From: Oscillospiraceae bacterium
GTDB taxonomy: Bacteria; Bacillota; Clostridia; Oscillospirales; Oscillospiraceae
Direction of reading: 5' to 3'
NCBI GenBank assembly: GCA_015068305.1
Contig: SVKV01000004.1
Span: 1 to 64,000 of the forward strand
DNA length: 64,000 nucleotides
The translations under genes were made by a program, and so were the position numbers. A model generated the notes under the pieces. That model was not told the origin of the DNA. It made no database searches and saw nothing but the letters and a program-made list of their open reading frames with translations. Below are positions 27,324-36,216 of this stretch, one piece after another. Every line of letters begins with the position of its first letter. The stretch's first letter is position 1.

Positions 27324-28340
27324 CTATACATATTTGACAGCAATCTGTCCAAAACTGACATCCGCATCGATGGAGAGGGAAACGGCGGTTTCGCTGTCGT
27401 GGTTGCCATGGATGTCCACAGAGCCGAAGGCGGCATCGGAATCCACCTCCGCCCGGACGGATTTGGGAACCAGAATGGTAAGATTACCGAAGGAACAGTC
27501 GGCATCAATCCGGCAGTTTTCATCGAATGCTTCGCAGCCGGTCAGATCCACCGTCAGATTTCCAAAGCAGACATCTGCTCTGCCGCTGCGCAGCCGGGGC
27601 AGATCGATGACATGATATTTTTCACTGAATGAAATGGAAATGTCAAAGGAATCCTCACCAAAAGAGCAATCAGAAAGGTTTTGCTTCATATTTTTTCCGT
27701 TGTGGATGACCGTAACATGAGGCCTTGCTGATTTGCGGAAAGCTTTTACCAATAAACTGAAACCCAGAAGAATCAGCAGGGCGGGAATGGCAAAAGCGCC
27801 GCTCAGATTCATGTCGCTCATGTTGGAAAACAGAAAACAGGCACCGAGGAATGTACAGCCCAGACGCAGGAATGTGAATCTGCGAAACAGAGCAAAGCCG
27901 CCGTAGATCAGCAGGGCGCTGGGCCAGAGCAGCGCCCACAGGTCGGTGGGCTGCCCCGTCATAATGCGAAGCAGATACACAATTCCAACCCAGATAAAAA
28001 GTACTGCGGTGGCCAGCTGGGAGGACCGTCCGGTATCCATCCGGAACTCCCAGTTTCCTTTCTGTAAATGGATGCCCTCCGGCGCTTCCTCCGTATGAAC
28101 GGGTTCAACGATTTCTGCCTCCCTGACTGCTTCCGGTTCGGACAGGCCCAGCAGAGCATCCGTCGTGGTTCCAAAAATTTCTGCCAGCTTCGGCAGCATG
28201 GTGATGTCCGGGCAGGACTGGTCATTTTCCCATTTGCTCACCGCCTGGGCGGTGACGCCCAGCTGCTCCGCCAGTCGGTCCTGGGTGATGCCCAGCCGTT
28301 TCCGGTTGGCAACGATCCGCTTTCCCAAGGTTTCTTCCAT
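27324..28340 (-). CDS. XRE regulator fused to LiaI/LiaF-like membrane domains
   Basis: The 338-residue protein starts with an XRE helix-turn-helix (about 5-60, QDRLAEQLGVTAQAVSKWEN). A linker follows, then four hydrophobic helices (about 112-210) and a beta-rich C-terminal domain with repeated short motifs (DCSFGED, DVCFGNL, DCSFGNL, DAAFGSVD, DVSFGQ). This repeat pattern is typical of LiaF-type and toastrack envelope-stress domains. The protein could therefore sense envelope state and bind DNA in one polypeptide. The start at 28340 follows GGGAGG. It diverges from the LURP/luxS operon, and two palindromes lie in the shared upstream region, candidate sites for this protein. Confidence 0.8.
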   Translation of the reverse strand: MEETLGKRIVANRKRLGITQDRLAEQLGVTAQAVSKWENDQSCPDITMLPKLAEIFGTTTDALLGLSEPEAVREAEIVEPVHTEEAPEGIHLQKGNWEFRMDTGRSSQLATAVLFIWVGIVYLLRIMTGQPTDLWALLWPSALLIYGGFALFRRFTFLRLGCTFLGACFLFSNMSDMNLSGAFAIPALLILLGFSLLVKAFRKSARPHVTVIHNGKNMKQNLSDCSFGEDSFDISISFSEKYHVIDLPRLRSGRADVCFGNLTVDLTGCEAFDENCRIDADCSFGNLTILVPKSVRAEVDSDAAFGSVDIHGNHDSETAVSLSIDADVSFGQIAVKYV

Positions 28341-31744: not shown

Positions 31745-32194
31745 ATGACAGAACGGGAATATGAAAAACTGGTGGCGGAGCTGAGTCCGAAATCTCCGCT
31801 GTGGCGGGACTGCCTGAATGCATTCTGGATCGGCGGACTGATCTGCACCGTGGGCCAGTTTTTTATTAACTGGTACAGCAATCTGGGGCTGGACCGGGAG
31901 AATGCAGGCACCGCCGCATCCATGACGCTGGTGGCGATTTCTGCGGTACTGACGGGGCTGAGCCTTTATGACAATATTGCAAAGCACGCCGGTGCCGGGA
32001 CTCTGGTGCCCATCACAGGCTTTGCCAATTCCGTCGCCGCCCCGGCAGTGGAATTCAAGACCGAAGGCTTCATCCTTGGGGTTGGCGCGAAGATGTTCAC
32101 GATTGCTGGCCCGGTGATCGTGTATGGTGTAAGCGCAAGTGTGGTGTATGGATTTGTCTATTGGATCACACAAATGATAACGGGCGGTTTATAA
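31745..32194 (+). CDS. spoVAC: Stage V sporulation protein AC
   Basis: SpoVAC is part of the SpoVA machinery that moves dipicolinic acid into the developing spore and acts as a mechanosensitive channel in germination (Bacillus). The 149-residue protein has several hydrophobic helices and the family core LVPITGFANSVAAPAVEFKT followed by EGFILGVGAKMFTIAGPVIV. ATG at 31745 has GGGAG at good distance; an ATG six bases earlier is too close. spoVAD and spoVAE usually follow in Clostridia, but here a minus-strand regulator does. The gene is therefore an isolated copy. Confidence 0.93.
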   Translation: MTEREYEKLVAELSPKSPLWRDCLNAFWIGGLICTVGQFFINWYSNLGLDRENAGTAASMTLVAISAVLTGLSLYDNIAKHAGAGTLVPITGFANSVAAPAVEFKTEGFILGVGAKMFTIAGPVIVYGVSASVVYGFVYWITQMITGGL

Positions 32195-32203
32195 CCGCCC
32201 GTT
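32179..32203. terminator. Stem-loop at the spoVAC end
   Basis: AACGGGCGGTT pairs with AACCGCCCGTT and includes the spoVAC stop codon. The T run is poor on both strands, so termination strength is uncertain. Confidence 0.55.
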
Positions 32204-32231: not shown

Positions 32232-32837
32232 TCACAGGTCTGCTTTGCGGGCAGGCAGCTTTTTTCGGAAGAGCCCGTGCTGATTGCAGTACCAGTACAA
32301 GGTTCCGATTCCACGGAGTGAAAGCCTGGTTTCAGCATTTCCCTCCGGGTAGAGCTTTACCATCTGGATTCTGTCTGAAGTTACGAATGCAGCAAAGGAA
32401 ACATAATGCCCCTTCTCCATGGGATGGTGGACGGTGATAAAATGCTCATCCTCCACCTTTTCAATGGTGATGGTATGATCTTCGTCCGCTTCTTCCGCTT
32501 CCAGAGCAGGCAGGGTAATGCCGCAGCAACTGACCACGGTATTTCCAAGGGCATGCACAGCATTGCCGCAGACGGGACAGACATAGAACAGACTTCGCTG
32601 CATGTTGGCGGAGACGTTCCTGTTAATGATATGCTCTCCGTTCATCAGCTCAATAACAGAGATTCCCAAGGCCTGAGCCAGGGGCTGTAAAAGAGAAATA
32701 TCCGGAAGTCCCTTTCCGGTCTCCCATTTGGAGATGGTTTTGCTGCTGACACCGACCCGATCCGCCAGATCGGCCTGCGTGAAATTCCGCATTTCCCGCA
32801 GGCGTTTGATCGTTGCACTTGTTACATAGGTGTTCAT
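32232..32837 (-). CDS. XRE-type regulator fused to a complete desulfoferrodoxin
   Basis: Residues 8-65 of this 201-residue protein are an XRE helix-turn-helix (QADLADRVGVSSKTISKWET). Residues 85-107 form a desulforedoxin-like knuckle, C87-x2-C90 with C104-C105. Residues 118-195 look like superoxide reductase: HTITIEKVEDEHFITV, HHPMEKGHY, and YCNQHG. The iron ligands of that family can be matched to His121, His138, His144, Cys184 and His187, with the exact 6- and 3-residue spacings of the enzyme. The protein is therefore likely an iron-containing, redox- or superoxide-responsive DNA-binding protein. The start at 32837 follows AAAGGACG. Its target is unknown; the convergent spoVAC and the same-strand GNAT gene are neighbours. 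Confidence 0.85.
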   Translation of the reverse strand: MNTYVTSATIKRLREMRNFTQADLADRVGVSSKTISKWETGKGLPDISLLQPLAQALGISVIELMNGEHIINRNVSANMQRSLFYVCPVCGNAVHALGNTVVSCCGITLPALEAEEADEDHTITIEKVEDEHFITVHHPMEKGHYVSFAAFVTSDRIQMVKLYPEGNAETRLSLRGIGTLYWYCNQHGLFRKKLPARKADL

Positions 32838-32928
32838 AAATACCACGTCCTTTCTGAATAACAGGTTATCACAGAAGCGAAAACAGGGCAACCTATGTAT
32901 CGTAGACTGTATATTTAAAGAAATGAAT

Positions 32929-32952
32929 GCCTGCCGCGATTTGCGGCAGGCG
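32929..32952. terminator. Stem-loop after the GNAT gene
   Basis: GCCTGCCGC pairs with GCGGCAGGC around GATTT. It lies between the minus-strand GNAT gene and the minus-strand XRE fusion. On the minus strand an ATTCATTTCTTT stretch follows, a moderate terminator. Confidence 0.6.
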
Positions 32953-34862: not shown

Positions 34863-34941
34863 GCAAGGACGGAAATGTTTTCTCTTTTTTCTGTGCTATT
34901 ATATAGATGTAGCTACAAGGAAAATGAAAGGAGGGGGAAGA

Positions 34942-36216
34942 ATGGACAATCGGAGGATCATCCAGAAAAGCCTTGACTATATCGAGGACAATCTGCAAAC
35001 GGAGATTACAGCCGCAGAACTGGCAGAAATGGCGCATATTTCCCTGTTTCACTATTACCGGCTGTTTCAGCAGGCTACGGGTATGCCTGTGATGCAGTAT
35101 ATCCAGCGGCGCAGACTGCTCCATGGGGTCTATGCTATGAGGCAAGGAAGCACCAAAATCGATGCGGCGCTTTCCTTTGGCTTCGATACCTATGCAGGGT
35201 TTTACAAGGCTTTCTGCCGGGAGTTCGGCGCCACACCCTCTGTTTTTTTAGAGTCCAGTCGGGCCAAACGGCCCTACCGGATCGACATCACCAAGGAGAA
35301 ATACATGACTGTAACCCATAAAAAAGCCGCCCGGATTCTGAAACACTGGAATCTGGAGGGTGAAACTATTACCGATATCTACTACGAGGGTACCGGGAAC
35401 AAAAATGAAAATGCCTGCTATGTGGGGGAACGCTATGTGCTGAAGTATACTGCCAATCTGGGCAAGCTGAAAAAGCACATTGAGGTTTCCGAAGCGCTCC
35501 ACAGCATCGGACTGCTCTCTGCCGTGCCGGTGCCCACTGCCGACGGCGCGGAATACATTTCCGACGGCGAGCTTTATTTCTATCTGACCCGCCGCCTGCC
35601 GGGAGGGCAGATGGTATCCCATCGGTTTGCCGATGGCGACGGACGTTTTGTAGGGGAGATCATCGGTCAGCTCCATCTGGCGCTGCACAAAATTGAGGAC
35701 TGCGTCAGCGAAGCAGATCTGCTGGCAACGGTCCGGGACTGGGCACTGCCAAGGACTAAAGCGGCGCTGAATTTATCCGATGCATTCTGTAAGGAATATC
35801 TGGGTGCCTTCTCCGCCCTGTACCCTGATCTGCCCCGGCAGATCATCCACCGGGACCCCAATCCCGGCAATATCATCTGCGCCGAAGACCAGTGGGGCTT
35901 CATCGATTTTGAACTGGCGGAGCGGAATGCCCGGATCTATGATCCCTGCTATGCGGCTACGGCGGTGCTGTCGGAAACTTTTGGACAAAACAATGGAGGC
36001 TGGCTGGAAATCTACCGGGATATCATCCGGGGCTATGACAGCGTGGCCCATCTGACGGAAGCAGAGCGAAAGGCGATTCCCTATATCATTCTTGCCAATC
36101 AGTTTGTCTGCGTGGCGTGGTTTGCCGAACAGGACAAGTATGCGGAGATTTTTGAAATCAACAAGCGCATGACCAAATGGCTGATCGGTCAGCTTGAGGT
36201 ATTGAAGGATATTTAA
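34942..36216 (+). CDS. AraC-type regulator fused to an aminoglycoside-phosphotransferase-like kinase
   Basis: Residues 1-105 of this 424-residue protein are an AraC/XylS DNA-binding domain with both helix-turn-helices (ITAAELAEMAHISLFHYYRL and KIDAALSFGFDTYAGFYKAF). Residues ~150-400 are a phosphotransferase of the APH/choline kinase group. VGERYVLKYT carries the ATP-binding Lys, IIHRDPNPGNI (near 301-311) is the Brenner-type catalytic loop, and GFIDFELAERN (near 319-329) provides the metal Asp. The canonical HxD is HRD here. ATG at 34942 follows AAAGGAGGGGG. The fusion suggests that a small molecule both binds or is phosphorylated and controls transcription. An antibiotic-resistance role is not supported by the sequence. 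Confidence 0.87.
   Translation: MDNRRIIQKSLDYIEDNLQTEITAAELAEMAHISLFHYYRLFQQATGMPVMQYIQRRRLLHGVYAMRQGSTKIDAALSFGFDTYAGFYKAFCREFGATPSVFLESSRAKRPYRIDITKEKYMTVTHKKAARILKHWNLEGETITDIYYEGTGNKNENACYVGERYVLKYTANLGKLKKHIEVSEALHSIGLLSAVPVPTADGAEYISDGELYFYLTRRLPGGQMVSHRFADGDGRFVGEIIGQLHLALHKIEDCVSEADLLATVRDWALPRTKAALNLSDAFCKEYLGAFSALYPDLPRQIIHRDPNPGNIICAEDQWGFIDFELAERNARIYDPCYAATAVLSETFGQNNGGWLEIYRDIIRGYDSVAHLTEAERKAIPYIILANQFVCVAWFAEQDKYAEIFEINKRMTKWLIGQLEVLKDI

Follow-up and report, generated by a model that had tools for sequence, protein, structure and literature searches.

An XRE-type helix-turn-helix protein fused to a desulfoferrodoxin module: a candidate autoregulatory redox sensor in Clostridia

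Main finding

Anaerobes must be able to detect superoxide and oxygen. The known regulators SoxR and PerR respond by Fe-S oxidation or by metal-catalysed oxidation. A regulator built on the iron site of a superoxide reductase (SOR) would sense with the same chemistry that removes the threat. Here, we describe a protein that joins an XRE helix-turn-helix (HTH) to a desulforedoxin (Dx) knuckle and an SOR domain. Its gene lies in a stretch of 64,000 nucleotides from an Oscillospiraceae bacterium, which was analysed as a whole and is referred to as the window. On balance, we consider it likely that the fusion is an autoregulatory, redox-responsive transcription factor with the superoxide-reductase module as its sensor.

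The fusion combines a Cro/CI-type HTH with a two-domain desulfoferrodoxin fold

A Pfam search of the 201-aa protein returned HTH_3 (PF01381) at residues 10-64 with E=2.3e-16, and its sequence carries the Cro/CI-type HTH that characterizes XRE regulators. For the remaining part of the chain, phmmer against the PDB sequences identified 2ji2 (E=1.7e-8) and 1dfx (E=2.2e-7). Both matches cover the two sub-domains from residue 81 or 84 to 191, and that to 2ji2 improved to 1e-14 with a profile built from 50 sequences. The SOR fold extends over the whole module, which corresponds to the two-domain desulfoferrodoxin fold. HTH, then Dx, then SOR in one chain is the architecture termed HTH-Dx-SOR in SORGOdb. 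The viral structure library contained no match to the protein at E<=0.001.

MAFFT and HMMER agreed on the four Dx cysteines given in Table 1, and both aligned H121, H138, H144, C184 and H187 with H48, H68, H74, C115 and H118 of 1dfx. As judged from these alignments, the four histidines and one cysteine of the Fe(His)4Cys site (centre II) are complete in the query. An earlier note on this DNA had proposed an XRE HTH followed by a desulforedoxin-like knuckle and an SOR-like domain, and had matched all five SOR ligands. The searches bear out this domain order, and the alignment with characterized desulfoferrodoxins that the note had suggested indicates that the five SOR ligands and four Dx cysteines are equivalent to those of 1dfx.

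General models score the fusion weakly. PF01880 (Desulfoferrodox) gave E=3.2e-4 and 21.6 bits, slightly under its cut-off of 22.2 bits (22.5 bits in the genome search), while TIGR00320 (dfx_rbo) reached 44.2 bits over residues 84-191, far under the cut-off of 146.9, which places the protein outside the desulfoferrodoxin equivalog. Automatic annotation may therefore give the HTH name alone; a relative from a plasmid collection (H2) carries the annotation ‘helix-turn-helix domain-containing protein’ and nothing more. The open reading frame is not a chance or spurious one, as judged from 455 related stretches and a dN of 0.105 at a dS of 1.33 against the relative L001.

Table 1 Features of the fusion gene and its surroundings in the window.
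Feature	Position	Strand	Remarks
HTH-Dx-SOR gene	32232..32837	-	201 aa; ATG start at 32837, TGA stop; open ORF
XRE/Cro-CI helix-turn-helix, residues 7-68	32634..32819	-	
Desulforedoxin (Dx) knuckle C87xxC90-x13-C104C105, residues 84-110	32508..32588	-	C87/C90/C104/C105 aligned with 1dfx C9/C12/C28/C29
Superoxide-reductase domain, residues 114-194	32256..32498	-	ligands H121, H138, H144, C184, H187
Residue 120, Asp	32478..32480	-	Lys in stand-alone SORs, within the motif E-K-H (Lys48 of D. baarsii)
Putative operator TCTACGATACATAGGTTG	32889..32906	-	conserved motif; core CTACGATACATAG at 32893-32905; one mismatch in right palindrome half
Putative -35, TTGCCC	32886..32891	-	operator motif ends with this TTG; family TTG position
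Putative -10, TAACCT	32863..32868	-	weak against family consensus TATAAT; 17-nt spacer; 25 nt to ATG
Terminator-like hairpin	32929..32951	-	between upstream GNAT gene and fusion-gene promoter
Terminator-like hairpin	32179..32203	-	after fusion gene

Fused proteins form a family separated from stand-alone proteins

Of the 455 stretches encoding relatives, which were found in genome contigs, 80 were kept; the labels assign 70 of these to Clostridia and 7 to other or unplaced Bacillota, and 3 carry no label. A fused-type match (>100 bits) was present in 41 of 150 genomes of the window's family. In the window's class, 76 of 391 genomes contained such a match, a few of them in an open frame that encodes no HTH; as scoring was limited here to the best candidates of each genome, second copies may have escaped. 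For comparison of the two types, we employed 190 fused proteins including the query (187 distinct after three duplicate rows) and 79 stand-alone proteins. The latter consist of 34 first controls and 45 further strong PF01880 matches, added because 30 of the first 34 were the best Pfam scorers; HTH matches in two of the 45 added loci fall in other open frames. The query copies L081, L089 and L125, the remaining loci of the genome search, and L165, L138, L175 and L177, which lack an HTH in the same frame, were excluded from these counts, and the module boundary of L217 was placed by hand. Alignment A1 comprises 77 of the 80 loci and the window, alignment A2 49 of the 80 and the window.

In a quick tree of few columns (108 columns, 230 rows; 27 of 224 inner branches starred), a single starred branch with a support of 99 parts the fused from the stand-alone proteins, so that one fusion event suffices. 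By the starred branches, no more than 3 changes are forced in the position-187 group, 3 in the position-121 group and 1 in the site-lost group. The nearest starred set of the query holds 9 rows, 8 of them intact and one without the first His.

A PF01880 search of the 150 family genomes yielded 27 weak matches, all of which are also fused-type matches. None of these 27 is an HTH-SOR protein without Dx, in a search that also misses some fused members and did not list this genome's own fused copy. Fused and stand-alone types occur together in 24 of the 150 genomes, the fused type alone in 17, the stand-alone type alone in 49 and neither in 60. The idea that the fused type replaces or depends on a stand-alone SOR was dropped, as the two showed no link in these genomes (Fisher p=0.15).

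The Dx site is retained while the SOR site varies

The Dx ligands are three cysteines plus a cysteine or histidine in all 190 fused proteins, with His at position 105 in 29. The five SOR ligands are complete in 127 and altered in 63 of them, as compared to 76 intact sites among the 79 stand-alone Dx-SORs (Fisher p=2.4e-8, uncorrected for kinship). The three non-intact stand-alone cases are a contig-end cut, a short frame without the knuckle, and an incomplete knuckle without the first His. Asp or Glu takes position 187 with Cys184 retained in 38 of the 190 fused proteins, H121 alone is missing in 16, and H144S occurs once. Eight proteins carry substitutions of H121, H144, C184 and H187 together; in them, H138 and all four Dx cysteines persist. 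When Asp/Glu at positions 121 and 187 are counted, ligand-capable residues occupy the five SOR places in 169 of the 187 distinct sequences. The exchange of Cys105 for His is found together with that of His187 for Asp in 24/190 (e.g. L041, L073, L039, L045), but with only two independent pairs on supported branches.

The two types also differ in spacing. H121 and H138 are separated by 16 residues in 186 of 187 distinct fused sequences versus 19 in 32 of 34 stand-alone ones; the three-residue gap at the first His segment that had been noticed in the query is thus real and a trait of the fused family. The interval between CxxC and CC is 13 residues in 185/187 distinct fused and 15 in 31/34 stand-alone proteins. 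All four cysteines are present in the query knuckle at a spacing of x13, while SORGOdb gives CxxCx15CC for HTH-Dx-SOR.

The residue next to the first His ligand is lysine in 78 of 79 stand-alone but in only 13 of 190 fused proteins, and the query has Asp120 instead of Lys48. Lys48 of the D. baarsii SOR forms a hydrogen bond to the peroxo intermediate and assists protonation, according to a figure legend (PMC2824530, Figure 2 legend). Lys48 is near-universal in our stand-alone sample, yet not strictly required for the name SOR. Across 110 genomes, a second Dx-SOR-type match accompanied 39 intact sites and was absent for 33, compared with 21 and 17 for altered sites (Fisher p=1). This absent link strongly favours neither a sensor nor an enzyme. 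Taken together, the aligned sequences suggest that the SOR site of the fused family is not conserved as in an enzyme.

A conserved operator-like motif abuts the promoter of the fusion gene

Usable upstream sequence was available for 183 of the 190 fused genes. Within up to 150 bp upstream, 72 of these genes carry an exact copy of CTAC-N5-GTAG and 57 a copy with one mismatch, compared with a Markov-1 expectation of 0.1 and 5.5 per 183, respectively. The broader motif TCTACKNNNMGTNNRTTG at <=2 mismatches was present in 162/183 fused upstreams versus 0 of 33 stand-alone Dx-SOR upstreams, whose start codons were guessed, and about 1 per 183 in the Markov model. TTG follows the palindrome almost directly (T 128, T 93 and G 114 in 128 aligned upstreams), and TATAAT, often preceded by TG, lies 17 nt past the TTGNNN hexamer in the 128 aligned sites. 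This placement sets the operator centre near -43 and the operator edge at the -35 box. The protein may act as an activator or as a repressor: lambda OR2 is likewise centred near -43 with respect to PRM, but repression would be compatible with the TG that many family promoters carry ahead of the -10.

In the genome of the window (G000), the window operator is the sole match with <=1 mismatch. A generic sigma-70 scan of the window did not report the proposed fusion-gene promoter. Among the 150 family genomes, we observed ten perfect matches to TCTACKNNNCRTAGGTTG, of which eight precede an HTH-Dx-SOR gene; the other two lie 81 bases before a contig end (G034) and inside long open frames (G055). 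A regulon search with CTCTACKNNNMGTAGGT covered 30 chosen genomes, 22 with altered and 8 with intact sites. Nine of its ten perfect matches are located just before an HTH-Dx-SOR gene and the tenth, in G261, before an FMN-reductase-like gene that precedes the fusion gene. At <=1 mismatch, 20 of the 30 genomes had matches, 31 in total versus 125 for the reversed pattern; at <=3 mismatches, the genome of the window had 58 versus 116 in the control, and its three 2-mismatch matches all fall inside long open frames. A wider regulon was rejected on these counts, which lie below the reversed-pattern control. The L242 site (2 mismatches) also lies 47 nt before a 382-aa D,D-carboxypeptidase-like open frame, without a family-type -10.

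A similar operator layout was found ~60-100 nt before the starts of four XRE genes whose C-terminal parts differ from that of the fusion. One of them, L082 (G000:C53:619-3801), belongs to this genome and has one mismatch to the broad motif, and L277, L280 and L286 come from three other genomes. Judging from this shared layout, the HTH-operator unit looks modular and is apparently shared by an XRE subfamily whose C-terminal sensors are exchangeable. Regulatory cross-talk with L082 is possible. As the motif also precedes other XRE genes, L082 included, its binding may not be unique to the fusion protein.

Genomic context

On one side of the fusion gene lies a GNAT gene, on the other a convergent SpoVAC-like gene. 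The latter encodes a SpoVAC/SpoVAE-like sporulation membrane protein (31751-32191, + strand); no further spoVA gene was present among ten neighbours checked. A conserved neighbourhood was considered and discarded: upon clustering of 860 ORFs from the 80 loci and the window, the largest shared cluster occurred in 10 loci at scattered places and strands and resembles an ABC exporter, and none of the window neighbours recurs in more than one other locus. Two further genes of the window also join a regulator domain to another part. One, ~2 kb off at 34924-36216 (+), combines an AraC-type HTH and an APH-type phosphotransferase in one chain, a regulator-enzyme fusion. The other, at 27327-28340 (-), combines an XRE HTH with a LiaF-type transmembrane domain, the LiaF C-terminal match being sub-threshold; its upstream region holds no close operator copy (best 4 mismatches).

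In 6/188 fused loci (L037, L051, L056, L133, L155, L171), an FMN-reductase-like gene (PF03358, 24.4 bits on the first 90 residues of the protein) adjoins the fused gene, sharing its strand and lying no more than 250 bases from the module. No such neighbour was seen in the mostly shorter flanks of 34 stand-alone loci or beside the window gene. In G261 (L155/L308, G261:C7), the operator lies 72 nt before the FMN-reductase-like gene, and the fusion gene comes second. The adjacent gene points to a redox partner or process in a minority of fused relatives. Rubrerythrin matches are present in the genome of the window.

Discussion

In the mechanism that we favour, the protein would dimerize through its HTH and probably through the Dx-SOR module, the part through which desulfoferrodoxin dimerizes. 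The dimer would occupy the palindrome next to the -35 box at the promoter of the fusion gene. Oxidation, or binding of superoxide or peroxide, at the iron of the Dx site, the SOR site or both would alter DNA binding and thereby the expression of the fusion gene itself. The Dx site would be the constant part, while the SOR site may supply superoxide reactivity; the absent lysine may slow peroxide release, a property that would be more fitting for a sensor than for an enzyme. Operator binding, iron at the sites, a superoxide or oxidation signal and the Dx centre as essential switch are parts of this mechanism that we infer. Against a sensor speak the weak -10 of the query, in a promoter missed by the generic scan, and the failure to find a second strong target site in this genome, as a sensor that serves only itself would be odd. 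The earlier note had gone further and envisaged a regulator with a full superoxide reductase as its sensor. The regulatory part of this idea gains support from the operator-like motif conserved at the promoter of the fusion gene, but a ‘full superoxide reductase’ is too strong for a protein with Asp at the place of the catalytic Lys48 from a family in which 63 of 190 ligand sets are altered.

Enzyme function remains conceivable, since the SOR ligand set is complete in most members, query included. The fusion might accordingly be, as raised in the note, a bifunctional, autoregulated superoxide reductase that senses and destroys superoxide, its single operator adjusting its own dose only. The fusion gene is the sole PF01880 match in this 95%-complete genome, in which no Fe/Mn-SOD was found either, and this leaves room for a real enzymatic role. 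In line with this, 17 of the 41 fused-type family genomes, some of them incomplete, have no other Dx-SOR match, no near-perfect operator was found elsewhere in this genome, and the FMN-reductase-like neighbour of the six loci outside the window could be an electron donor. We nevertheless regard such a dual role as unlikely, given the replaced catalytic lysine, a first His pair that is three residues closer, and SOR ligands that are altered in a third of the family, with four of five gone in eight members. Moreover, a shared enzymatic load predicts a link between altered ligands and a second Dx-SOR match, and the two are unlinked.

In a further reading, the knuckle and the His/Cys site would bind iron or zinc chiefly to support the fold or to gauge metal supply, without redox signalling. 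The tolerance of the Dx site for Cys105 to His would fit, as would the ligand-capable residues that most fused proteins have at all five SOR places; zinc knuckles tolerate Cys-to-His exchange. However, the module has the two-domain desulfoferrodoxin fold, and the exact set of four His and one Cys, kept in 127/190, is unusual for a plain metal sensor, which makes this explanation rather improbable. It is more improbable still, to the point of being hardly credible, that the protein is a decayed enzyme whose SOR module acts as a dimerization domain only. The eight proteins with the lost site might be read that way, but five ligands retained in 127/190 across a divergent family, a Dx site kept throughout and the purifying selection on the whole gene seen against L001 argue against a relic.

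Beyond the single protein, we tentatively suggest, with somewhat more doubt than confidence, that HTH-Dx-SOR is a widespread clostridial sensor family in an enzyme-to-sensor transition: one fusion to an autoregulating HTH, the catalytic lysine gone in nearly all members, Dx always retained, and the superoxide site lost or re-coordinated (His to Asp) several times. If true, superoxide reductase would have given rise to a sensor of superoxide or redox state whose operator is common to the family. The shared motif makes the class directly testable, as a single promoter and a single protein suffice and nature supplies variants in which the site is intact, changed from His to Asp or lost.

Comparison with known systems

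SORGOdb defines an HTH-Dx-SOR class with an N-terminal HTH before Dx-SOR, comprising 19 of 325 curated proteins (PMC3116461). The architecture of the query is thus already known by name. The description in the accessible part of that paper is architectural, without an operator, SOR-ligand drift or lysine loss. We found the term HTH-Dx-SOR in the open-access literature in this paper alone, and no experiments on the class came to light there, as judged from titles and the opening lines of abstracts; as far as we found, neither the operator nor the relaxed SOR site has been described in open-access literature. TrtA of Treponema denticola was considered as a class member and set aside, being described in the accessible part of its report as a 104-aa XRE protein with no recognized domain after residue 80 (PMC12724145). 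Compared with desulfoferrodoxin (2Fe-SOR, class I; 1dfx, 2ji1), to which it is 28-30% identical in structural alignments, the query adds an HTH, has three residues fewer between the first two His and a knuckle of x13 instead of x15, and lacks Lys48. The SOR of Treponema pallidum (1y07), in which the Dx centre is degenerate, is a stand-alone protein, unlike the query. XRE repressors of the P22 c2, 434 and DdrO type, finally, carry C-terminal domains other than Dx-SOR.
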